Source: Methanosphaera stadtmanae
Lineage (GTDB): Archaea; Methanobacteriota; Methanobacteria; Methanobacteriales; Methanobacteriaceae
Assembly: GCA_015062825.1 (NCBI GenBank)
Contig: SUTR01000023.1
Span: forward strand, 1-38,732
Direction of reading: 5' to 3'
Length of the DNA: 38,732 nucleotides
Shown one piece after another: positions 10,808 through 38,560 of the stretch. Numbering within the stretch: position 1 is the stretch's first letter; each line of letters starts with the position of its first letter. Under the pieces are notes generated by a model that was given only the letters and a program-made list of their open reading frames with translations, was not told the origin of the DNA and made no database searches. The translations under genes and the position numbers were made by a program.

Positions 10808-13800
10808 TTGAATAAGAATATTTCTTTAGTAACAATAATTATTATTTTTTCATTGTTATCATTAACTGTGGTTTGTGCCCAAAATGATACTGATGTCGAT
10901 AATATTCACAGTTCTCAAATAGATACCAGTATCACCAATGAAATATCAGTTGATAAGAATAGAAATATGAATATTTCATCTAAAGTCGATAATTCACGTA
11001 AAGATAATATTAATACAGGTTATGTAATATATAAGGTAAATCAACAGACACTGAAGGATGAAAATAATAATATTATTAAATCCTACATCAAAGATAATCA
11101 GACAACATATAATATTAGAATTCCTTCTACATGGGGTAATGATTATATTAATGTTGAAACGGTATATAGTGGAAGTAAGTCATACTCATCAGCAAGAAGC
11201 AAGTCACAAAACATTACATTAGCAAAAATTAAAACAAACATAATAAATGACATAGCTATTGACAGCAATAGGGTAATATCATTTAACTCAAACATAAACA
11301 ATACTATTAATGAAACAATAAACAATGGATATTTGATATATAAAATAAACAATCAAACATTAAAGGATTTAAACAATAATGTAGTTAAATCCAGTATTAA
11401 AAACAATATTGCAACATATCAATTTCAGCTTCCAAATACCTGGGGAAGAAACAACATAACAGTCGAAACAGTATATAGTGGATATAAGGCATTTGCATCT
11501 GCAAGAAGCAAGTCGCAGATAATCAATTTACCTAAGCTTAAAACTAACATTGTCAATGACATCACAGTAAATCCTAACAGGACAATCACAATTAAATCTA
11601 GGGTGGATGATTCCAAAAATGATAGTATTAGTTATGGATATGTAATCTACAAAATCAACAATGAAACAATTAAATCAAACAACCAGCAGGTAAAAGTAAA
11701 CGTTAAGGAAAATACATGTACATATCAATACAACATACCAAACACATGGTTTAAAGATCAATTAATAATTCAATCAGTATACAGTGGAGCAAAAGGATTT
11801 GACTCATCACGAAGTACATCTGAAACAATCAACATTCCAAGGATAAATACAAATATACAGACTGATTCCCTTATAACAAATACAGACAAGGATGTAGTTA
11901 TTCCAGTAACAGTTAAAGACAGTTATAATCGTCTGGTAAATGAGGGTAATGTCTCAATATACATAGATAACAAACATATTAAAACTCAAAAGCTATCTGG
12001 CGGACAAGCAAATGTTAACATTGGACGATTAAATAACCGAACACATCTCATAAAATCAGTATATAATTCACAAAAATATAATTCAAGTAGCAAAACATCT
12101 ACCGTGAAAATATTACCAACAACTCATATGGATGTCAGGACTGCAAGTTATGTTTATGGCGAAGCTATAACAGTATCATATACTATCTATGATAACAACA
12201 ACAAAACAGTTAATGGTGGAACACTTCTAATATATTCAGACAATAAACTGTTATTGAAAAAGAATCACAACAGCTCTGATACAACAATCACTCTATCAAA
12301 TATATCCGCAGGCAATCATAAATTAAAACTATCATATGAAAGCACAATCTACTGGAACACATCAAAAGAAACAACCATAACAATACAGAAGGCTAAATCA
12401 AACATCTATGCAAACAGTATTCAATCATTCAATACAAATAATCCCAAATTGGAATTAAATGTAACTGATAGTTTAAACAACAGTATTAATGAGGGTAAAT
12501 TGGATTTATATTTAAACAATAAGTTAGTCAAATCACAAAATATCACATCCGATAAAAATTCAATAGTGCTTAATAAACAGAATATAGGTGTATATGATTT
12601 GGAAGTTAAGTTTACCTCAAACAATTATATTTCAGCAAACAAACAATTAAAATTAACAGTAAATCCGGTATCAAAGTATACAATTAAATTAATATATAAT
12701 CCTGCTGCTATAGCCAATCAATCCACAAAAATCAGGGCACAAGTAAGAATTCCAAACTCCGGAACAATTAATACGGGTTCTGTGAAATTTTACTTCAACA
12801 ATACATATATGGGAACTAACAATACAAAAAACAACCTAACATCTAAAAGAATAAACTTGCCAGTTACTGGTGGTGATTATCCGGTTAAGGTTGAATATTA
12901 TTTAAACAATACATTTATAGGTGCTGATTGTCAGATAATGCATGTTAGGGATATTGAAAAGCAAGTTAAACAGGAAACCTTCATTACTATGATGACTGAT
13001 CTAGTTTCAAACTCTAAAATAACCAGTACCAAGAAGGATGTATATTTTGCAATGGATAGAACAACATCTACTCAAAACAATTACAGTCCTAATGACATGA
13101 AGATAATGAATAACATAGCATATAACCTAAATGCCAACGGGTTCAATGTAAAAACAATTAAAAACGGACCTGGTGAAACATATGAAACGGCCAGATATAT
13201 GTATAATAATAACATAAAAAATAGCATATGCTTTGTACTATGTAATGGTGTGGATGCAAACGTTATCAGGGAATATCTCAAAGGCAATGATCGATTACTA
13301 ACTGCTGTAAGAAATCGTGGAAATGACATTGTATTGGGATGGTTCTATGGAGCTGGAAATATATATGATAGTGATGGGGAATATTACTACTGGCTAGAGA
13401 AGGCATGGGATGATAACTATTCCAATAAGGGTGGAATAGCAAATCCTAGAAAGGTCATGGAAGATGATGGAATCAAAGTAATATATGAACATTATGATTT
13501 GAAGGGAGATGATGTTGCAAAATCATTTATAAAATTATATGGTGGTAAAGTAACAGAGAATATTACAAAGAATTCTGTTATTTCAGTAAAGACAAACCTT
13601 TACAATATTACTAATAAAACAATCAATAAGGGCAATGTAATATATACACTTAATGATAAGATAATTAAAAACATCACAATTAACAGTAATGTTGTATCAT
13701 TTAAGTTTACTATGCCTAATGTCAGTGGAACATATGATTTAAAGGCAACATATTATCTTGACAATACCAAAGTAGCTTCAACTGATGACAGGTATATTAA

Positions 13801-13816: not shown

Positions 13817-13860
13817 TTTATTTTTTTACCAATCTTTTTTATCTGATACTATTTTTTTAT
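13817..13860 (+). terminator. T-run terminator after the Ig-repeat surface protein gene
   Basis: Three T-runs (13821-13827, 13835-13840, 13852-13858) follow the stop codon closely. I see no strong hairpin. Confidence 0.4.
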
Positions 13861-13875
13861 TCGTTTTTATACGAA

Positions 13876-13897
13876 CAATATAAAAGTTTATATATGA
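13876..13897 (+). promoter_or_regulatory. Probable TATA region for hdrA
   Basis: ATATAAAAG followed by TTTATATATG gives two overlapping TATA-like elements about 130-145 bases before the hdrA start. This implies an untranslated leader of about 100 bases. Confidence 0.45.
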
Positions 13898-14023
13898 TAA
13901 TCTTAAAAAATTTAAACTATAGGATATAAAATGTTAAATTATTGTTGTTAACAAAATAAAAATCATTCTAATTTCAATTTGAAGTTTGAATGTAATAGTC
14001 TTAATTTAAATAGGTGATTTAAC

Positions 14024-15976
14024 TTGGCAGATAATGAAGAAATACGTATGGGAGTATACGTTTGTCACTGTGGAGTAAACATTGGTGGAGTAGTAGACTG
14101 TGTAGCAGTAAAAGAATATGCAGAAACACTTCCTGATGTAGTAGTAGCACGTGAATACAAATACATGTGTTCAGACCCAGGACAAAAACTCATACAAGAC
14201 GATATTAAAGAAATGAATCTTAACAGAGTAGTAGTAGCAGCATGTAGTCCTCGTTTACACGAACCTACATTCAGAAGAGCTGTAAAAGAAGCAGGATTAA
14301 ACGAATACTTATTCGACTTCGTAAACTTAAGAGAACAAGACTCATGGGTACACGGAGATGATCCTCAAGGTGCAACCGAAAAAGCTAAAGATTTAGTAAG
14401 AATGGGTTGTGCAAAAACAAGATTACTCAATCCTTTAATAGCAGAAAAAGTAGGTGTAAAAGACACAGCTATGGTTATCGGTGGAGGAGTAGCTGGTATC
14501 CAAACAGCATTAGACTTAGGTGACATGGGATTCAAAACATACCTTATCGAAAGAAACCCAACCATCAGTGGAAGAATGGGACAATTAGATAAAACATTCC
14601 CTACACTTGACTGTTCAATGTGTATCTTAGCACCAAAAATGGTAGATGCAGGTAAACACAAAAACATCGAATTACTAGCATACTCAGAAGTAAAAGATGT
14701 AGATGGATACATCGGAAACTTCACAGTAACAGTAGAAAGAAAAGCTAGATATGTAGATGAAGAAACCTGTACCGGTTGTGGAGTATGTCAAGAAGTATGT
14801 CCAATAGAAATACCAAACTACTTCGATGAAGGAACAGGTATGGCAAAAGCTATATACATACCATTCCCACAAGCAGTACCACTTGTAGCAACACTTGATA
14901 TGGACAAATGTGTCCACTGTACAATGTGTCAACAAAACTGTGAAATCGGTGCAATCGACTACGAACAAAAACCAACAACAGTAGAACTAGAAATTGGTAC
15001 AATCGTAGTAGCAACCGGATACGACACATTCGACCCAACAGAAAAAGAAGAATACATCTTCGATCAAGCTGAAAACGTAATTACCGGTTTACAAATTGAA
15101 AGATACATCAACGCATCTGGACCAACCCAAGGTCACGTAATCCAACCATCATCCGGTGAAACACCAAAAAGAGTTGCATTCATCCAATGTGTCGGTTCTC
15201 GTGATGAAAAAGTTGGAAACCCATACTGTTCCAGAGTATGTTGTATGTACGCAATGAAAAACGCACAATTATGTGTAGACCACGAACCAGATACCGAAGT
15301 AACAATCTATTACATAGATATTCGTGCATTCGGTAAAGGTTACGAAGAATTCTACAGATTATCACAAGAAAAATACGGAATTAAATTTATCAGAGGAAAA
15401 GCAGCACAACTTATCGAAAATGAAGATAAAACCATTACAGTACGTGCAGAAGATACCTTACTCGGTAAAGCAACCGCATTTACTTATGATTTAGTAGTAT
15501 TATCCGTAGGTCTTGTACCACCTGAAGGACAAGAAACCTTAAGACAAACCTTAGGTTTATCCAAATCCGCAGATGGATTCTTTATGGAAGCACACCCTAA
15601 ACTCAGACCAGTTGACACAATGACAGATGGTATCTACTTAGCAGGTGTAGCACAAGGTCCTAAAGATATTCCTGACACAGTATCCCAAGCATCAGGTGCA
15701 GCAGCTAGAGCAGCAATTCCTATGATCCAAGGAGAAGTAGAAATTGAACCTATTATTGCTCAAGTTAACGAAGACAACTGTGGAGGATGTGAAATCTGTG
15801 TTGAATTATGTCCATTCGGAGCACTTTCAATTGAAGATGGTAAATCCACAGTTAACGTAGCTTTATGTAAAGGATGTGGAACATGTGTAGCTGCATGTCC
15901 AACAGGTGCATTAGATCAAGCACACTTCAAAAACGAACAAATCCTTGCTCAAATTGAAGCAGCACTTGGAAAATAA
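14024..15976 (+). CDS. hdrA: CoB-CoM heterodisulfide reductase, subunit A
   Basis: HdrA is the flavin subunit of the cytoplasmic HdrABC complex. With hydrogenase MvhADG it bifurcates electrons between ferredoxin and CoM-S-S-CoB, the last step of methanogenesis. The 650 residues show an N-terminal CHCG (Cys14/Cys16) and an FAD-binding GGGVAG (153-158). Cys197/Cys200 (DCSMC) lie near the flavin. Ferredoxin motifs are at Cys249 (CTGCGVC...C) and Cys296 (CVHCTMC...C), with two more at the C-terminus (Cys586 CGGCEIC, Cys616 CKGCGTC). This is the full cofactor set of the family. The start is TTG, eight residues ahead of Met9, with AGGTGAT correctly placed. Codon use is more regular than in the neighbours, fitting strong expression. 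hdrB and hdrC are not in the window, which is usual for this order. Confidence 0.96.
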
Positions 15977-15986
15977 GATTCGTTTA

Positions 15987-24747: not shown

Positions 24748-26070
24748 ATGAATTTCATGGCTGAGGTTGAGAATTCTATTTGTCGGATTGAGGACTATAA
24801 TGATTATAAGTATTGGTATGGGCGTAAAGCTTTTACTCGTGTTCGTAAATGGAGTTTTATGGATTATGTGATTTTTATTTTGGTTAATAAAGGTCGTAGT
24901 AGTGTTATTGAGATTGAAGAGTATGTTGAAGATCGTTGGGGTGATGAGTCTAAAATCATTTCTAAACAGGCTTTATCAAAGCAACGACTTAAAATTAAAC
25001 CTAAAATCTTTAAAGATATGAATTTGGATTTTATAATGGATGTGTTTAATAGTTCTGAATTTGAGCATGATTTTGAAGATTATACGATATTAATAATGGA
25101 TGGTTCTGATTTTCAATTACCTAATATTAAAATTACTAAAGAAGAATTTAATGTTGCGCAGGATACTATTGTTTACACGCAATCTCCTAGTGTTAAAGCT
25201 TCTATGTTAATAGATGCTAAATATAACCTTGTAATTGATGCAATTTTGGGTGATTATAAATCTAATGAACGGGAATTAGTTAAACAACACATATCTAATA
25301 TTGAAGATAAAATAAACTTGGAAAAAACTGTGATAATATTTGATAGAGGTTATATATCACTTGAATTAATGTTATTCCTTGAAAATAAAGGTATTAAATA
25401 TTTATTCAGATCCAATGGAAGATACTACCAAAATGAAATATTGGCTATGAAATCTCGAGATGAAACCGTACAATTAGAAATTAATTCAAATAGAACTCAA
25501 AATATTAACGATAAAAACATTAAAAAACAAGCATTAAACCTAAAATATTATCAAACAAGAATAAGCAAACCATTATTAGACAATAATGTCACAGAAATAC
25601 TATTTACCAACATCACAGAATCAGAAGCTGACATTCACAAACTCAAAGAACTATACAAAATGAGGTGGGAAATCGAATTAAATTACGAAAAAATCAAAAA
25701 TAAACTACGAATAGAAAATTTCTCTGGAAAAAGAAGAACCATAATAGAACAAGACTTCTATTCACAAATATACCTCTTCAATTTACAAATGGCAATACAA
25801 AACAAAGCACAAAAAGAACTAGAACAAGAAAACAAAGAATTACGAGAAAAATCAGACAAAGAAAAACGACCAAACACCAGCCTAGGAATTGGACATCTCA
25901 AAAATAAACTAATCAAAATATTACTAAAGCCATTAACAACAATTAAAAAACATCTGGAGAATTTAGTAGGTAAATCCCTAAAATTCACCACAGATCATAA
26001 ATTCAACAGACCCCAAACAAACAGAAAAACTAAACAACACAAATCAAAAATTAAGTTGACAGCATTGTAA
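24748..26070 (+). CDS. IS4-family transposase
   Basis: The 440-residue DDE transposase shows no sign of decay. The catalytic Asp residues appear in LIMDGSDFQLP and in VIIFDRGYISLELM. The Glu sits in the IS4 hallmark YKMRWEIELNYEKIKNKL, a Y-(2)-R-(3)-E-(6)-K pattern. The N-terminal 100 residues include the QALSKQRLKIKP helix region, common in this family. The C-terminus is strongly basic. The ATG at 24748 is followed three codons later by a second ATG (24757), and neither has a good ribosome binding site. The CDS runs through the right inverted repeat, and its TAA (26068-26070) falls just outside the repeat as I draw it. It lies between adhesin-like genes C and D and faces the same way. Confidence 0.92.
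   Translation: MNFMAEVENSICRIEDYNDYKYWYGRKAFTRVRKWSFMDYVIFILVNKGRSSVIEIEEYVEDRWGDESKIISKQALSKQRLKIKPKIFKDMNLDFIMDVFNSSEFEHDFEDYTILIMDGSDFQLPNIKITKEEFNVAQDTIVYTQSPSVKASMLIDAKYNLVIDAILGDYKSNERELVKQHISNIEDKINLEKTVIIFDRGYISLELMLFLENKGIKYLFRSNGRYYQNEILAMKSRDETVQLEINSNRTQNINDKNIKKQALNLKYYQTRISKPLLDNNVTEILFTNITESEADIHKLKELYKMRWEIELNYEKIKNKLRIENFSGKRRTIIEQDFYSQIYLFNLQMAIQNKAQKELEQENKELREKSDKEKRPNTSLGIGHLKNKLIKILLKPLTTIKKHLENLVGKSLKFTTDHKFNRPQTNRKTKQHKSKIKLTAL
26051..26067 (-). repeat. Right inverted repeat of IS4-type element
   Basis: TTAAGTTGACAGCATTG is the inverted partner of 24435-24451, and it encodes the last residues of the transposase. Confidence 0.85.
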
Positions 26071-26566: not shown

Positions 26567-29500
26567 ATGAAATTAAATAAGTTAAGTTTATTTGTTTTGA
26601 TTTTATTTGTAGGGCTTACAGTTGTAAGTGCAGCAGATGTGGCAGATGATGCTACAGTTGCTGTTGAAGTACCTCAAGTAGAACAGGCAAGTAATGCACA
26701 AAATGGAGTAGCACAAAAATATGTGCAAGAAGATAATAATTTAGATGAAACAAGTAATGATATTAGTATTACAGAAGATGTAGTTATCACATCTGAAAAT
26801 GTGAACAGTTATACTAATAAAAACTGGACAGTAGAATCTGATGTTACTGTAACTGGTACTGATGGAGTTACATTGAATGATGTGGCTATTAATGTTGCTG
26901 GTAACTATGTGACACTAAATAATTTAGATATAACTACTAGTGCAGGACATGCTAATTATATAGTTAATGCTATTGGTAGAAATAATTTAACAGTAACAAA
27001 TAGTGCTTTAACTATTACTAATACAAATAATGAAGATACATTTGGTATTTATTTAAAAGATGTTACAGGAGCTTTAATTCAAAATGTTGAATTAACTGTT
27101 AATGCACCATCTAAATCTATGAATTGGAATAATTATACAATTGGTGAAGGGGATGATGCTCAAACAGTATGGTACAGTGTTCCATCAGTCGGAGCAATAG
27201 TTAGTGACAGTTCAAAAAATCTTGACATAACTAATAACACCATAGCTATCTCAGCAAGTACACCTTATCAAAGTGGCAGTACCATGCCTGCTATAATACT
27301 AAGAAATCAAACTAACAGTAGCCATGTAAACGATAATACAATAACTGCTAGTGGATCAACATACAATTATGCTATAATGTGTAATGATAATGTGAATAAT
27401 TTAGACATTACAGAAAATAGAATCACAGTAACAGGACAAGTATATACTGCTGGAATAGATGCATCAACATCAAAAGGTTCAAATATCAATTATAACAATA
27501 TTACTGCAACAACAATAAATACAATTGGACTTGCATCAAATCAAGAAGCATTATCATATGGAATAATACTTGCAACTACAAACCAAAACTCTAATAACCA
27601 TGTACAATACAATTATATAAACCTCATGGCTAATGTAGGATATGGAATAGAAAATTACATGGGAGCAAATAATCACATAGAATACAATAATATTACAATC
27701 AATGCTAAACGTGGACTAGGAATAGCAACAAATGCATCAAACAACAACCAATACAACCATAACAAAATCAACATAACCTGTAACCAAGAATCAATTAACA
27801 ATTACTATGAAACAATACCAGCACAAAATGTGGGAATAATAGTAATCAGCGGAAACACCAACACAATTAGCAACAATCAAATTAATATAACCGAAACAAG
27901 TACAACTACAACAACATATGCAATAACATTAGATGAAAACTCTGCAAACAATAATGTTAATAACAATGAATTATATGTCTATAATACAAATGGGGTAACA
28001 TACTATGGAAATGGGGCTGTAAATAACTTAAATATTCTTAATATAGTAAATAATAATATTCCTTATACTGCACCTGTTCAATATGCTATGGTTAATAAAA
28101 ATCTTAAAAAAGATGAGTCCAACCCTTTAATCATTAATATTGAAAATTTTTCAGATTATGGAGTAATGGACCCATATGGTGTTACAATTACACTAAAAAA
28201 TCCAAATGATGATTATATAATAATTGACAGTACTGATTTTAATTTAACCAATGTTGCACCAGTATTAATTGTTGATGGAGTCACAGCAGATAATCCTAAG
28301 TTTAAATTTGTTTCAGAAAATACATTTTTATATAGGGTACTGTTTGGGATGAATGCTATAGTGGTGGACTCATATATCCCATATTCTCAAATAAATAGTA
28401 GGATTCAATTAATAAATACGGTTATATTCACTTCTAAATTTCCTAATAGGTTAACTTTGATAAATTCTACTATATTGTCAGAAACAGAAAATATTCTTAC
28501 ATTTGAAAGTATGCAATATAATACCTATTTTGATTCTACAACAAACATTATGTCTGATTCAGTTTCAGAAGGTAATACTTTTGTATTGAGAAAGTATAAT
28601 GCTCTTAATAATGAATATAATAATTATAACAAGCCGATAATTATTAACAAACCAGTTAATATAACTAGTTATGATTACAGTCCATTCAGTGCAGATATCA
28701 CATTTATTGCCGGTTCTGAAGGATCTAACATCACTGGTTTAACATTAAACGGTAACTTGTACATTAACACGTCTAATATTAATGTGAAAAACAACACTAT
28801 AAATAAAGCTGTTATAATAAAAGATGCTAGTGATGTTGTAGTTGAAGAAAACACATTCAATACAGACACTGCTGCTATTGAAGTAATTGGTGGAATTCAA
28901 AACACTATTCAAAACAACAACATTACAACAACAAGCACCTACACAATTACTCTTGATGCTGATAGTGCAGAAAATACAATAAGTGGTAACAATTTACAAG
29001 CAACTGAATTAACAGGAGTAGACAGTGTGCTTGATGAAGGTGAAGACAACACCATAACCGATGGTGGAGATGAACCAGTAATAGTTGAACCAGTACTTAA
29101 AGTAGATACAACAGAATTTACCGTTGGTGAAACTACAGCAATCAGTGCTAGCATTTACATGGGTGATGAAGTAGCAACTGATATCAATGGTGGAAAAGTA
29201 GTATTCAAAGTAAATGGTAAAACATTGAAAGATGCAAACGGTAAAGTAATCTATGCAAAAGTAATAAACGGTACTGCAACAATCACAGACTATGAAGTAC
29301 CATCAAGTTGGGCAAAAGACAACATTACAATCCAAGCTGTTTATAGTGGTTCATCAAAGTGTGAAGCACTTAGAACTAGTGCTAACTTAACTGTAACCAA
29401 AGACACACCATCAATAACTTCAAGTGATGTTACAGCATCTAAAGGTGAAACAGTTACACTTACAGCTACAGTATCTGAGGGTAGTACTCCGGTTAATGTT

Positions 29501-29707
29501 GGTAAAGTAGTATTCAAGGTAAACGGTAAAACAGTTAAAGATGCAAACGGTAAAGTAATCTATGCTAAGGTAGTAAATGGAACTGTTAGTGTTGAATACA
29601 CTATTCCTGAGAATATGAAAGCAGGAAGCTATAATATTACAGTATCATTTACCGCACCAGGTTATGATAAACTAGTGGATACTAAAACACTTACTGTTAG
29701 TGCTTAA
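26567..29707 (+). CDS. Adhesin-like protein D, close paralogue of B
   Basis: The 1046-residue secreted protein has a signal peptide (MKLNKLSLFVLILF..., cut near VVSAAD, 22-23) and a short acidic linker. Its beta-helix body, about 75-500, follows protein B block by block, as in NVGYGIENYMG and the shared YYETIPAQNVGIIVI. A diverged middle section runs about 500-710. A second beta-helix block, about 710-830, and the two C-terminal modules (from about 840 and 946) are almost the same as in B at the DNA level. The second module ends like that of F. It therefore looks like a mosaic: body related to B, last module shared with F and with the fragment at 32056-32359. AGGTGAT lies just before the ATG. 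Confidence 0.85.
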   Translation: MKLNKLSLFVLILFVGLTVVSAADVADDATVAVEVPQVEQASNAQNGVAQKYVQEDNNLDETSNDISITEDVVITSENVNSYTNKNWTVESDVTVTGTDGVTLNDVAINVAGNYVTLNNLDITTSAGHANYIVNAIGRNNLTVTNSALTITNTNNEDTFGIYLKDVTGALIQNVELTVNAPSKSMNWNNYTIGEGDDAQTVWYSVPSVGAIVSDSSKNLDITNNTIAISASTPYQSGSTMPAIILRNQTNSSHVNDNTITASGSTYNYAIMCNDNVNNLDITENRITVTGQVYTAGIDASTSKGSNINYNNITATTINTIGLASNQEALSYGIILATTNQNSNNHVQYNYINLMANVGYGIENYMGANNHIEYNNITINAKRGLGIATNASNNNQYNHNKINITCNQESINNYYETIPAQNVGIIVISGNTNTISNNQINITETSTTTTTYAITLDENSANNNVNNNELYVYNTNGVTYYGNGAVNNLNILNIVNNNIPYTAPVQYAMVNKNLKKDESNPLIINIENFSDYGVMDPYGVTITLKNPNDDYIIIDSTDFNLTNVAPVLIVDGVTADNPKFKFVSENTFLYRVLFGMNAIVVDSYIPYSQINSRIQLINTVIFTSKFPNRLTLINSTILSETENILTFESMQYNTYFDSTTNIMSDSVSEGNTFVLRKYNALNNEYNNYNKPIIINKPVNITSYDYSPFSADITFIAGSEGSNITGLTLNGNLYINTSNINVKNNTINKAVIIKDASDVVVEENTFNTDTAAIEVIGGIQNTIQNNNITTTSTYTITLDADSAENTISGNNLQATELTGVDSVLDEGEDNTITDGGDEPVIVEPVLKVDTTEFTVGETTAISASIYMGDEVATDINGGKVVFKVNGKTLKDANGKVIYAKVINGTATITDYEVPSSWAKDNITIQAVYSGSSKCEALRTSANLTVTKDTPSITSSDVTASKGETVTLTATVSEGSTPVNVGKVVFKVNGKTVKDANGKVIYAKVVNGTVSVEYTIPENMKAGSYNITVSFTAPGYDKLVDTKTLTVSA
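28775..28884 (+). repeat. 110-base block identical to 19098-19207
   Basis: This is the partner of the identical block in gene B. Both copies are in the same reading frame and encode the same part of the second beta-helix segment. Confidence 0.9.
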
Positions 29708-29768: not shown

Positions 29769-30392
29769 TGTTTTTATTGTTTTTTTTGTATCTGTTTATA
29801 GTATCTATTTTTTTTAAATATTTTCTTTTGTAATTATAAATATATATTGGATTTTTCGTTTTGGTTGATATATGATGTTTTTGATGTATGTCATAGGGTT
29901 TTGTTGTTTTTATTTAAGGGTATTATTATGATATTGGAAAATTTTCTTATGATGTTATTTAATTTTATTTTTAATTTTGGCAATTGTTGTTAGTGGAGTA
30001 TTTGTTTATTATTTGTTGTTAGTTATCTAGAAGAATATGTATATTCTGATTAAATGGGGGTTTTGTATGTATTTAATCTTATATAGTGTAAAATTATATA
30101 GTTTACTGTATATAACATTAAATATATTAAAAAAAGTTTTTTGGAGGTATTAGATATGCAATCAATTTGTTTTTCATGTTAAACCTCATATCATGTCGAT
30201 GGTGGCATGTTAAGTAGTCATGCTATTTTTAGCGTGGTTATTAATTAGCTTTGGTTTATGGATGCATATATTTAATAATTATTATGAATATATTTATAGA
30301 TTAGTTGGATATTTAATCTTGGAGGAATTAGTTATTATTTTCAGTATTTGGGGAATGTAGGGAAATTTTAAGTAAAATTACACCAAAATGAT
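29769..30392. other. Intergenic remnant zone with structured segment
   Basis: This stretch has no intact gene of normal size. At about 29950-30030 one frame reads as a hydrophobic segment without a start (LILAIVVSGVFVYYLLLVI), possibly debris. At 30100-30245 lies a more organised piece: TATA-like sequence, a strong ribosome binding site, an 8-codon ORF and two hairpins, listed separately. A second orphan site TTGGAGGAATTAG at about 30320 has no start codon after it. Confidence 0.5.
30141..30242 (+). ncRNA. Candidate structured leader or small RNA with 8-codon ORF
   Basis: TTGGAGGTATTAGATATG is an excellent ribosome binding site and start, but the ORF (30156-30182) codes only MQSICFSC. Directly after come ACCTC, which can pair with the GAGGT of that site, and two hairpins. 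The first is CATGTC/GGCATG (30192-30209, 6 bp). The second is a 13-bp stem with a TTTT loop (30213-30242, several G-U pairs). The patch is visibly richer in G and C than its surroundings. It could be a leader with attenuation, a small RNA, or the remnant of a gene start. No family is recognised. Confidence 0.35.
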
Positions 30393-30614
30393 GTGATAAT
30401 TTCTCCACATTTTGATGTTAGGTTGAAAGGTAGGAAATTGGATGTTTCTAGTTATTATATGAAATATTTAAATTAAAAAGATACTAGAATCACCAAAGCC
30501 AAGGGACATAATCGTTTTATGTTATATTATTATTGTGAACCATTGGATCAAATGTTAACTATTATTATTCAGATTGAAGAAAATTATCAGGTGCGTTTAA
30601 TTACAATTTATTAG
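30393..30614 (+). pseudogene. DUF4258-like protein, interrupted by an in-frame TAA
   Basis: One frame is open from about 30372 (stop at 30369) to TAG at 30612, except for a single TAA at 30474. The first half reads IISPHFDVRLKGRK, the second ITKAKGHNRFMLYYY, then TIIIQ and VRLITIY at the end. This matches my picture of DUF4258: His-Phe near the start, a central strand, and a final ITVY. The family is often encoded next to DUF2283 and is suspected to be a toxin. The next gene, 13 bases on, is DUF2283, which supports the call. A GTG at 30393 is the likeliest start, though no clean ribosome binding site precedes it. The protein is probably dead unless the TAA is read through. Confidence 0.55.
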
Positions 30615-30627
30615 AGGTGTTTTTTGT

Positions 30628-30990
30628 ATGGTTAAATATGATGTTTATACATATGATGTAAGTACTGATTCATTATTTATTGCATTTCCTGTTGAATATG
30701 AATATGAAAAGGTTATACAAATTAATGAAGATTTTTTAATGGAAATAGATACTAATGGTTATCCTAGGGCTATTGAAATTTTAAATGCTAGTTCTAATTT
30801 TAATGTTGAGAAAAGTTTTTTGGAAGATGTTCATAAAGTTCATATGAAAATTACTGTAACAGATATGGAAATTATAGTTGAGATTTTATTAACATTAGGA
30901 AATAAGAATATTCTTCCACTTGTAGAATTAGTTGAAAATGAGTCTCATATTCCTTGTAATAATGAAAATATTGCTGTTAGTATTTCTTAG
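30628..30990 (+). CDS. DUF2283 domain protein, putative partner of DUF4258
   Basis: The 120-residue protein begins with the compact beta-rich DUF2283 motif: YDVSTDSLFIAFP, then a strand pair, then FLMEIDTNGYPRAIEILNAS (50-69). The remaining 50 residues (LEDVHKVHMKITVTDMEI onward) are an extension with one likely helix-strand unit. GAGGTG lies eight bases before the ATG. It follows a broken DUF4258-like gene by 13 bases. DUF4258-DUF2283 pairs are a known gene arrangement, often proposed as toxin-antitoxin. Here only the presumed antitoxin is intact. The domain call is by pattern and the biological role is inference. Confidence 0.7.
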   Translation: MVKYDVYTYDVSTDSLFIAFPVEYEYEKVIQINEDFLMEIDTNGYPRAIEILNASSNFNVEKSFLEDVHKVHMKITVTDMEIIVEILLTLGNKNILPLVELVENESHIPCNNENIAVSIS

Positions 30991-31038
30991 TAAAGTATAT
31001 TTTTTAATCATTTCTTTTTTTTGGTTATTGATATTAAA

Positions 31039-31052
31039 GTATATTAATATAC
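31039..31052. promoter_or_regulatory. 14-bp perfect palindrome GTATATTAATATAC
   Basis: This perfect palindrome lies between the DUF2283 gene and the VapB-like gene. It could be an operator or part of a promoter. In DNA this AT-rich, chance is a real alternative. Confidence 0.3.
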
Positions 31053-31329
31053 GAAAAAAATAACAAAAAATACAAAAAAGATATACAAGAAAAAAACAGA
31101 ATAAAAAGAATGAGAACCTCCAACAATTCAGTTTAAAGATTTTTTAGTAAGATTTTCTTAAGACTATGTTCATAATTATCAAACATGACTTGATATTATG
31201 TTTAATATAGAATATAATATACACAATTCAGATAATAAAATAATTGTCACACACCCTTTTAATATTCAAAAAAAAGATCAAACAAATTATCCAACATTCT
31301 CATTATCAATAATAATATCAGGGATTAAA

Positions 31330-31608
31330 ATGACTACTACAATTAGAATTAATGAAGATGTTAAGCAACAATTAAAGATACAGAGTGCTAAATTAGGTGT
31401 TAAACAAATTGATTTAGTTAATAGGTATGTTATTGAAGGAATTAGGAGAGATACTCTGGTTAATATTAAAAGTATTGTGGATATTGAAAGATTATTGTCA
31501 TATGATAAACCTGAAGGAAATAATTTAAAATCATTTGTTAATTTAATTGATAATGATGAGCCAATTGATCCTGTTGAAGAGAAAAAATCGGCTTATAGAG
31601 GTTATTAA
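31330..31608 (+). CDS. VapB-like antitoxin (ribbon-helix-helix)
   Basis: The 92-residue protein starts MTTTIRINEDVKQQLKIQSA, the strand-helix pattern of the MetJ/CopG ribbon-helix-helix fold, followed by KLGVKQIDLVNRYVIEGIRR as the second helix. The C-terminal 45 residues are acidic and probably wrap the toxin. The frame is open further upstream (to an ATG at 31198), but that extension has no domain character. AGGGATT lies right before the ATG at 31330, so I choose the internal start. The PIN-type toxin begins one base after the stop. As in other VapBC pairs it should bind its own promoter and neutralise the toxin. Confidence 0.75.
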   Translation: MTTTIRINEDVKQQLKIQSAKLGVKQIDLVNRYVIEGIRRDTLVNIKSIVDIERLLSYDKPEGNNLKSFVNLIDNDEPIDPVEEKKSAYRGY

Positions 31609-31609
31609 A

Positions 31610-32002
31610 GTGTTTTTTATTGATAGTTGTTATATTATTGCTTTAATGAATGTTAAAGCTAAAAAACATGATGAATCTTTAAAATTATTGGAGTTTATTG
31701 ATAATGAAAGAACATTGATTAATTCTACCGTAATTTTGGAAATTTTTAATAATTTGAAGAAGAAACGTTATTAAGCTAAATGTTTGGATATTATAGATTT
31801 AATTTATTCTATGGATAAAGTTTATTATTTGGATGTATCAGAGTATAATAATGCTCTTGATTTGTGTAAATATTATAATTTTAGTGTTAATTATGGTGAT
31901 TGTACTATAATACAGTCAATGGAAAAATATAATGTTAATAATATAGTTTCATTTGATAATGACTTTGATAAGGTTAAAGGGATTAATAGAGTTTATTTAT
32001 GA
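31610..32002 (+). pseudogene. VapC-like PIN-domain toxin, interrupted by an in-frame TAA
   Basis: One frame runs from a GTG at 31610 (just after the antitoxin stop, with AGAGG inside the antitoxin end) to a stop at 32000-32002. It totals 130 codons, with one internal TAA at codon 55 (31772-31774). All four acidic positions of a PIN RNase are present: Asp5 (FFIDSCYII), Glu44 (TVILEIFNNL), Asp97 (NYGDCTIIQ) and Asp116 (VSFDNDFDKV). No frameshift is needed, and the two halves join perfectly. VapC toxins cleave tRNA or rRNA. This copy should be inactive unless the TAA is suppressed. The single lesion suggests recent loss. Confidence 0.8.
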
Positions 32003-32055
32003 TATTTTTTCTAATTTTTTTTATCCTAATGAATGACTTAATTTCTATAATGTAA

Positions 32056-32359
32056 TCAACTCCAAGTATATCTACAAGTGATGTGCAGTCATCTAGGGGT
32101 GAAAACATTACACTTACAGCTACAGTATCTGAGGAGTACTCCGGTTAATGTTGGTAAAGGGGTATTCAAAGTAAACGGTAAAACAGTTAAAGATGCAAAC
32201 GGTAAAGTAATCTATGCTAAAGTAGTAAATGGAACGGTTAGTGTTGAATACACTATTCCTGAGAATATGAAGGCAGGAAGCTATAATATCACCGTATCTT
32301 TTACTACACCGGGTTGTGATAAATTAGTAGATACTATAACACTTACTGTTAGTGCTTAA
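32056..32359 (+). pseudogene. Detached C-terminal module of an adhesin-like gene
   Basis: The stretch encodes a complete last Ig-like module of the adhesin-like family with no body, signal peptide or ribosome binding site. It begins STPSISTSDVQSSRGENITL and ends with the family TLTVSA and stop. Compared with gene D (29415-29707), two bases are missing at about 32134 (GAGGAGTACTCC against GAGGGTAGTACTCC). That shifts the frame between the start and the main part (32143-32359). The 3' hairpin of the family follows. It is either debris of a deleted gene or a silent store of module sequence. Confidence 0.85.
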
Positions 32360-32365
32360 ATTTAT

Positions 32366-32412
32366 AGAAGAGGGAAAATTTGTTATTTTTCTTTATTCTA
32401 CTATTTTTTTTA
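32366..32412 (+). terminator. Family-type terminator after the detached module
   Basis: A stem of about 13 bp with one mismatch and G-U pairs (32366-32399, AGAAGAGGGAAAA against TTTTTCTTTATTCT) is followed by a T-run. It is equivalent to the hairpins after genes D and F. Confidence 0.5.
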
Positions 32413-35950: not shown

Positions 35951-38560
35951 ATGAAAATCCACATTAAACTTCTAATTTTAATAACAATTACTTTCACATT
36001 ATTATCTGTTAGCTTTGCTAGTAATTGTACTAGTGAATCGGATAGTCTAAAAATGATTATCTGTGAAGATAATTCTATTATTACGGCAGATGCTTTAAAA
36101 TTGGATTGTAATAATAATTTAAATAGTCAATATTTAAAGGAAAATAAAGAAGTTCAAACAGAAAAAAAGGATATTAAAAAAACAGATAATCCTCAAAGCT
36201 TTAATATTACCTCCAATAATATTAATCAAACATTTAATGTAGAAGATGATGAAATATTCATTAATACAGATATATTATCAACTGGTACTGATATTACATT
36301 AAACATATATGATATTCCTTCAAATATAAACTATTTGACATTGATGGATGAATCACAGGAGTATAATAACGTTAATATACGATTGATTGGTCATGATAAT
36401 TTAACTTTACACAACTTAAAAACATATATAAATGGATTTAATCAGGTGACAATTGAAAATATTAACTTTGTATATGATAGTAATTATACTGATGAGAAAT
36501 ATGTTCAAATAAATGATTTAACAAATATGTTGATTATGGATAATGTTACAATTACTGCTGAAAGAAATGATACAGTTGATTTAACAATTAATCAACCTCC
36601 TAGTAGTGAAAACAATGCAGTGCCATTACATATTAATACTAAGGCGTTAATTGAAAATTGTACTATAAATGCAATACTTAAAGAAAGTCTTATTGACTGG
36701 GATGGAGGATATGGTATTCCACAACAATTAGCGGTGATGATTACAAGTCCTGAGGTGATATTTAACAATAATAATATTGCTGTAATTGGTAATGGGGTGA
36801 TATCTAAAGCTTATTATTCAACATATGGTGTATTTTGCAGTGGAAGAAATTTGACATTCACAAACAATAACATAACAATAAACAACACGACAGGATATAG
36901 TTATGGATTAGTAGTAAGAAGCAGCAATAACCTAGTATCAAATAATAATATTACAATACAATCAAAGGCATATGCCAATGCAGTATACTTTGCAAGAGGA
37001 ACAATTCATAATAATACAATAAGAGACAACTATTTTAACGTTACTTGCACTAGCAACAAAGCACCATGGGGAAACTATGCAGTAGTATATGCAGTGGTAC
37101 TGGAGGATAGAAACTATGTAGGTGGAATATATAATCCAAACCGTACAACTGTAAAGCATAACAATATCATAAATAATACAATTTATGCCAGTGCACGTCA
37201 AACATATTCAATAGAAGTCTTTGGGGCAATTGACTTAAACATTTCAGATAATAAAATGTACAACAACGGTACTGCTCCAATGGCAATTGGAATAATAGGA
37301 TACAACAGCAGTATAAACAATAATAACATAACCTGTGTAGGAACAACAAACAGAACTGATGGAACAGTAGACTATATTGTCAGCAGAACAGTGGGTGTTT
37401 ATGCTTATTTATCAGATGGAATAAATATAACAGACAATACATTCAACATGACAAAGGGACGTGGAATATTTCTTACAAAATCAGACAACATACTCATAAC
37501 AAGAAACATAATAAATACAACAAATCATGATTACACAATAGATTTAAACAGTACCAACATTACAATATTATACAACAATTTAACTTCAAGAAATCATGTT
37601 GGGGATGAATCTGTTAATAGTAGTGCTGGTGAGGATATTACAGTAAAATATAACCAATATACTACTACAACTCTAGAAATTAAATCAAATGACACTACAA
37701 CAATAAATCATACAATACCAATAACTATAACCGTAAAAGACTCTCAAAACAATTCTTTACCTTATGTAAAATTAATAATAAACAATGAAGAAGAAACTAC
37801 TGAGGTAATAACAAGCAATGAAGGAAACTATGTATATAATTATACACCAACAACTGAGGGTAAAAAAACTATAACTGTAAAACTAGAAAACTATCTGATA
37901 TTTGACAATCAAACAAACAACACTATTATAACTATAAACGAATCACCAACACTTATAATAGATTCATTAACACTAACGGCCGGACAAAATACTAATATAA
38001 CAGCAAGAATAACTGTAGGTGAAGAAACATTAACAAGAATTAACAAAGGAAAAATATCCTTTAAAGTAAATGGTAAAACACTTAAAGACTCTAAAGGTAA
38101 GGTAATCTATGCAAAAGTAGTAAATGGTATGGCAACAATTGAAAACTATGAAATTCCAGATGATTGGGGAAAAAATGGAATAACAATACAAGCAGTTTAC
38201 TCAGGATCAACTGAGCTAACAAAAATGTCAAGCCAGAAACAAAACATTACAATCACACCAAAAGAACTAACAATTACAACAGAAGATAAAACAGCTACCA
38301 CAAATTCAACAATCAACTTAACAGCAACATTCAATTACAACTCAGTAAATACTGGTAAAGTAGTATTCAAAGTAAACGGTAAAACAGTAAAAGACACTAA
38401 CGGTAAGGTAATCTATGCTAAGGTAGTAAATGGATGTGTTAGTGTTGAATACACTATTCCTGAGAATATGAAGGCAGGAAGCTATAATATTACAGTATCA
38501 TTTACCGCACCAGGTTATGATAAACTATCAGATACTAAAACACTCATTGTTAGTGCTTAA
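35951..38560 (+). CDS. Adhesin-like protein F, 869 aa
   Basis: This is the smallest of the five beta-helix proteins. The signal peptide (MKIHIKLLILITITFTLL) is cut near SFAS (23). A variable linker is followed by the beta-helix body (about 85-570) with TFTNNNITINNTTGYSYGL-type turns. One extra Ig-like unit lies at about 575-660 (PITITVKDSQNNSLPYVKL). The two family modules start at about 664 and 772. The last module is nearly the same DNA as that of gene D, including a 54-base run without a difference (GCAGGAAGC... to ...GATAAACTA). GGTGGTGGA precedes the ATG. It begins 97 bases after gene E. Confidence 0.85.
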   Translation: MKIHIKLLILITITFTLLSVSFASNCTSESDSLKMIICEDNSIITADALKLDCNNNLNSQYLKENKEVQTEKKDIKKTDNPQSFNITSNNINQTFNVEDDEIFINTDILSTGTDITLNIYDIPSNINYLTLMDESQEYNNVNIRLIGHDNLTLHNLKTYINGFNQVTIENINFVYDSNYTDEKYVQINDLTNMLIMDNVTITAERNDTVDLTINQPPSSENNAVPLHINTKALIENCTINAILKESLIDWDGGYGIPQQLAVMITSPEVIFNNNNIAVIGNGVISKAYYSTYGVFCSGRNLTFTNNNITINNTTGYSYGLVVRSSNNLVSNNNITIQSKAYANAVYFARGTIHNNTIRDNYFNVTCTSNKAPWGNYAVVYAVVLEDRNYVGGIYNPNRTTVKHNNIINNTIYASARQTYSIEVFGAIDLNISDNKMYNNGTAPMAIGIIGYNSSINNNNITCVGTTNRTDGTVDYIVSRTVGVYAYLSDGINITDNTFNMTKGRGIFLTKSDNILITRNIINTTNHDYTIDLNSTNITILYNNLTSRNHVGDESVNSSAGEDITVKYNQYTTTTLEIKSNDTTTINHTIPITITVKDSQNNSLPYVKLIINNEEETTEVITSNEGNYVYNYTPTTEGKKTITVKLENYLIFDNQTNNTIITINESPTLIIDSLTLTAGQNTNITARITVGEETLTRINKGKISFKVNGKTLKDSKGKVIYAKVVNGMATIENYEIPDDWGKNGITIQAVYSGSTELTKMSSQKQNITITPKELTITTEDKTATTNSTINLTATFNYNSVNTGKVVFKVNGKTVKDTNGKVIYAKVVNGCVSVEYTIPENMKAGSYNITVSFTAPGYDKLSDTKTLIVSA

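Follow-up and report, generated by a model that had tools for sequence, protein, structure and literature searches.

We interpret the segment at positions 32056 to 32359 of the window (the whole 38,732-nucleotide stretch analysed, contig C124 of G000, a 2.61-Mb draft genome of Methanosphaera stadtmanae) as most likely the untranscribed and decaying tail of an adhesin gene that once stood here in tandem, the dead 3' end of a lost neighbor. The remnant itself is ordinary. What deserves attention is its position behind toxin-antitoxin (TA) genes: adhesin 3' stumps are numerous in this genome and in G003, a complete congener genome, and are often found beside TA operons.

The remnant and its neighborhood

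The features of the window that bear on the remnant are as follows.

24748..26070, + strand: DDE transposase gene of an insertion sequence (IS; Pfam PF01609), between adhesins C and D
26567..29707, + strand: intact adhesin-like gene D, with the module nearest to the remnant at its end (29405-29704)
29585..29674, + strand: D side of a D-F near-identity tract, with 1 difference in 90 bp to F 38438-38527
30628..30990, + strand: DUF2283 gene (Pfam PF10049), between D and VapBC
31330..31608, + strand: VapB-like antitoxin gene (identity to G003 VapBC; ribbon-helix-helix type by inspection)
31610..32002, + strand: VapC (PIN) toxin gene, broken by a TAA at 31772-31774
32053..32055, + strand: in-frame TAA directly 5' of the remnant (sequence)
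32056..32359, + strand: 3' remnant, the last Ig-like (archaeal Big-type) module of a presumably lost adhesin-like gene (identity to the ends of D and F, alignment)
32134..32135, + strand: site of a 2-base deletion relative to D (alignment)
32365..32400, + strand: 3' hairpin and the T-rich DNA behind it, with homologues at D and F (homology; the fold is weak alone)
35951..38560, + strand: intact adhesin-like gene F, next after D in relatedness to the remnant

By sequence and alignment, the remnant module reads TCA ACT CCA AGT ... GTT AGT GCT TAA and keeps its own stop codon. In BLAST it matches the end of D (29414-29707) at 91% DNA identity (E 2.5e-111) and the end of F (38345-38560) at 88% (E 8.4e-73), values that exclude a chance match, and at the protein level it matches the module of D with E 1e-39. 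Homology to both genes continues about 50 bp beyond the stop codon into the 3' untranslated region (to 32411). The 5' 90% of the adhesin gene is missing, the in-frame TAA stands directly upstream, and two bases are deleted relative to D (remnant TCTGAGG--AGTACT, D TCTGAGGGTAGTACT). As a truncated homologue of an intact gene with these two lesions it fits the description of a pseudogene, and homology to the C-terminal modules of intact adhesin-like proteins identifies it as an archaeal Big domain (ABD) module. Pfam returned only weak Big/Ig/MG2 matches for it, in agreement with the published statement that Pfam contains no definition for ABDs (PMC11532034).

An earlier, sequence-only reading had described a complete C-terminal module standing alone, with a 2-base deletion near its 5' end and long matches to the last modules of D and F, all of which the alignments bear out. 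It had also assigned the module its own 3' hairpin. Here the position holds, being conserved with the hairpins of D and F, but the fold is not significant on the remnant alone: 16 of 200 shuffled sequences fold equally well, compared with 2 for D and 4 for F, where the hairpin is better supported. The remnant is presumably promoterless and untranscribed. There is a 93-codon start-to-stop frame from GTG 32078, but we find it hardly credible that a small protein is expressed from it: the first 20 residues of the frame do not belong to the module's reading frame, a signal peptide is missing, and the frames of orphan modules vary between loci.

The DNA just upstream of this lone module, which the sequence-only reading passed over, consists of the VapB antitoxin gene and the broken VapC gene. 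The VapBC block (31302-32024) is 94% identical at the DNA level to a VapBC pair in G003; in Pfam the VapB-like gene itself has a weak Omega_Repress match only. The nonsense TAA of VapC is GAA in G003, where the frame is open; this lesion next to the remnant indicates that the zone is decaying. An hdrA-like gene lies 5' of VapBC in the same orientation in both genomes (13859-15983 here). This makes the region partly syntenic; what sets G000 apart from G003 within it is the set of adhesins B, C, D, E and F together with the remnant. The G003 counterpart of this VapBC precedes other DNA, not an adhesin module. At the remnant junction, the VapC stop is at 32002, homology to G003 runs until 32024, and adhesin homology begins at about 32041-32068. 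Between 29708 and 32060 no adhesin homology was found (best E 0.2), and the 2.3 kb upstream of the remnant contains only other genes. Insertion of VapBC into a still recognizable adhesin was rejected for this reason. The open frame before the DUF2283 gene (30390-30614) was considered as a DUF4258 toxin remnant and dismissed, as it has no Pfam support. An 86-bp stretch nearby (31026-31111) is an inverted copy, 86% identical, of the region upstream of vapB in G003.

The closest relatives of the remnant are its neighbors D and F, as expected for a tandem paralogue. The former gene would have been a sister of D, once located between D and E, and a deletion or replacement would have removed its promoter, signal peptide and beta-helix part, with the other edge of the event lying 20-60 bp 3' of the VapBC operon. 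The stump would yield no exported protein and could persist because it is silent, and hence neutral. No relative in which the sister of D is still intact here was found, so that its loss between D and E is inferred.

Divergence of the module and the donor question

Over 210 aligned coding bases, the remnant differs from D with a dS of 0.30 and a dN of 0.025; dS is 0.35 between the remnant and F and 0.19 between D and F. The divergence from D is mostly synonymous, which argues that most of the differences arose while the ancestor still coded for a protein. Accordingly, the low overall dN/dS of the remnant reflects divergence that mostly predates truncation. Its private residue G35 falls at an almost invariant V/I site. 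No relative closer than D and F was found among the genomes of the genus, the contigs of the species genome or viral contigs, and the lack of a match in the last of these led us to reject a virus-borne module as the origin of the remnant.

Over a stretch of 90 bp, D and F share 98.9% identity, and just upstream they differ by 11% (run permutation P = 0.004, post hoc). Within this tract the remnant differs from D at nine sites and from F at eight, whereas upstream of it the remnant sides with D, from which it differs at 5 sites; there it differs from F at 13, and D differs from F at 10. The tract is likely the product of gene conversion between the two intact adhesins, with the remnant left out.

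The sequence-only reading had left the choice between debris and a silent donor cassette. Debris is supported by the truncation, the in-frame stop and the 2-base deletion. The cassette, a promoterless module kept as a source of variants and copied by gene conversion into D, F and other expressed adhesins, we consider very improbable. The remnant does combine the lack of a promoter with about 90% identity to expressed genes and with homology kept over both module and terminator, and D and F suggest that tracts are exchanged between such modules, but the D-F tract excludes the remnant. It has exact stretches of 50-53 bp in common with these genes (the longest is 53 bp to F and 50 bp to D), yet they are no longer than the exact matches between intact genes (54 bp from D to F). 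The frameshift would be copied too, and the exchange would touch the conserved stalk module rather than the beta-helix, which is the variable part. The occurrence of several orphan modules per genome, some near an intact relative (contig C123), could also speak for donors; however, their start points vary, they form no contiguous array and have no border repeat, and one of them (on contig C18) is a plain deletion scar. The sequence-only reading had proposed looking for remnant-specific variants in expressed genes of isolates and metagenomes. Such alleles include the codons GGG at 32159-32161 and TGT at 32315-32317. None of 121 modules from intact adhesins carries the private G35, the site being V or I in 112 of them, while other residues of the remnant occur singly among these modules (T84 in 1, C87 in 6, I94 in 2). 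The private allele, the D-F tract, the exact-match lengths and the varying start points thus fail to bear out the cassette.

The vls and pilS systems provide the yardstick for silent donors. Like their cassettes, the remnant is a partial and presumably promoterless copy of an expressed gene, with an in-frame stop and only other genes upstream. Their cassettes form a contiguous array near one expression site; the remnant is solitary in the window, intact adhesin genes are many, and the orphans are scattered between TA genes rather than near a single expression site. Donor-specific tracts in an expressed gene were not found in the one genome of the species. Nor did we find constant borders or flanking repeats: starts vary by locus, and the C18 orphan joins inside hsdR, for which reasons a site-specific cassette with a fixed border was also rejected. 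Literature searches returned no paper in which methanogen adhesins undergo gene conversion or phase variation or draw on silent cassettes, consistent with the remark in the sequence-only reading that no donor system has been described for them. The analysis takes away a tempting case for donors of the antigenic-variation kind in a methanogen.

Orphan modules behind toxin-antitoxin genes

A whole-genome search of G000 with the last module of D gave 150 module matches, many of which are internal repeats and about a dozen of which sit in short frames. With extra cases from masked BLAST and TA control loci included, there are 13 orphan 3' modules in G000 and about 10 in G003 (~23 together); the pattern is not unique to the window. 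Their start points differ from locus to locus. In several cases the nearest relatives are local: the window remnant goes with D and F, two orphans on C123 are nearest to each other and to the C123 adhesin, and three G003 orphans are nearest to one another. Longer 3' remnants exist (frames of 229-531 amino acids) but are fewer than the very short ones. In contrast, 5' stumps are rare, with 1 of 50 N-terminal matches from the two genomes in a short frame. This asymmetry is significant against the best 60 or 80 C-terminal matches but not against all 150, and we use it as supporting evidence only.

At 7 of the 13 orphans in G000 the gene immediately 5', in the same orientation, belongs to a TA system: VapBC at the window, C18 and C101, ParE at C112, Zeta at C120, and nucleotidyltransferase/HepT at C121 and C123. 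Among intact adhesins of the same genome the count is about 0 of 33, with only ambiguous neighbors scanned with Pfam. The association, which was noticed post hoc, has a Fisher P of 3e-5, or 1e-4 with the window left out. Conversely, an orphan follows within about 350 bp downstream of 2 of 5 HepT genes and 3 of 7 VapC genes in G000, the broken VapC of the window being counted. The association is not independent between the two genomes, because HepT with its orphan is one shared unit.

The locus on C18 (L057, 261-1332) shows how such a stump can form. There, VapBC is followed by 13 codons of hsdR and these, without a gap, by an adhesin 3' end. The VapBC segment matches contig C42 and two other genomes (G001 and G007) up to one base, then switches gaplessly to adhesin; on C42, VapBC and hsdR are contiguous and hsdR is intact. 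Judged by this switch 13 codons into hsdR, the C18 orphan is a clear deletion scar, with the restriction genes and the greater part of an adhesin lost. The junction in the window is compatible with the same kind of event.

Such events would explain the recurrent tail-behind-TA arrangement if TA operons mark deletion end points, cells that lose a working TA pair being selected against; promoter-bearing 5' parts of adhesins would be lost and silent 3' stumps would persist. TA systems do suppress deletions on Pseudomonas syringae plasmids (PMC6354349). Two findings sit uneasily with this account: some orphan/neighbor units are common to different species, for which plain local deletion gives no explanation, and the orphans are mostly very short, though random deletion should leave all lengths.

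A competing account, which we regard as unlikely, is that adhesin 3' modules travel with TA or IS cargo, the module serving as a homology arm for integration into adhesin 3' ends and leaving direct module repeats around the cargo. Orphan modules do stand directly 3' of TA pairs at several loci, but about half of the orphans have no same-strand adhesin upstream, and in G003 the window's VapBC is present but has no module. HepT with its orphan is found in two genomes with different flanks and with a third block whose order is swapped, one orphan segment has 98% identity across species, near-identical VapC copies (99.8%) occupy two G000 contigs, and G003 contains module-cargo-module arrays; however, no recombinase or circular form was seen, and the C18 junction is non-homologous, inside hsdR. 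The same low probability attaches to the wider proposal that, in genomes of the Methanosphaera type, TA pairs recombine together with adhesin 3' modules as one unit, with module-TA-module arrays as homology-bounded landing sites. If it were true, TA and defence cargo would be gained and lost at these arrays, and the stumps would be their footprints. We prefer TA-limited deletions as the explanation of the recurrent arrangement. For the loss and gain of surface genes in these adhesin-rich genomes, the choice lies between TA addiction and module recombination as what fixes the ends of deletions.

Several shared segments were recorded in their own right. HepT with its orphan is 91% identical over 701 bp between G000 (C121, L055, 6995-7690) and G003 (L075, 2074296-2074993), with different flanks, and a 160-bp block is found on one side of this unit in G000 and on the other in G003, which would look like a circular permutation. 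An 873-bp orphan segment is 98% identical between two species (L064, G000 C5, 26143-27013; L135, G018 C170, 8186-9058), far above other adhesin DNA, and the transposase-type gene to its left differs between the two loci; the gene before the C5 orphan, at one point taken for TnpB, is a DDE transposase. The VapC copies at 99.8% identity (L126, G000 C101, 23901-24419; L125, C104, 1-519) diverge right after the stop codon, and G001 carries a duplicated VapBC pair (L141; 99.9% over 789 bp, ~2 kb apart). In G003, three orphan modules are interleaved with a DUF4143 ATPase gene and a DUF3990 gene in a module-cargo-module array (L077, 663411-670496), and a run of ~20 C occurs in AT-rich intergenic DNA near an IS (L024, ~10812-10830).

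Comparison with known systems

The remnant is of the C-terminal Ig-like stalk repeat type that stands behind the beta-helix in adhesin-like proteins (PMC11532034), but it is solitary, with neither a membrane anchor nor a beta-helix. It resembles the vls silent cassettes of Borrelia (PMC11499132), which are likewise promoterless and incomplete copies with ~90% identity to a surface gene that is expressed; it differs from them in having no contiguous array, no single expression site and no donor tracts in expressed genes. It also resembles the truncated pseudogenes of expanded surface-protein families in gut methanogens. Intestinal Methanobacteriota are reported to show genome erosion, more pseudogenes and an expansion of adhesin-like proteins (PMC13135261), and the remnant, too, derives from a large adhesin-like gene by truncation and frameshift, in a genome with many genes of this kind; here, however, almost only 3' ends remain, often directly behind TA operons. 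As for the P. syringae TA systems that prevent deletions (PMC6354349), the parallel is that TA genes stand at the edges of deleted regions. The present case is chromosomal and archaeal, the association is positional only, and the VapC of the window is broken.
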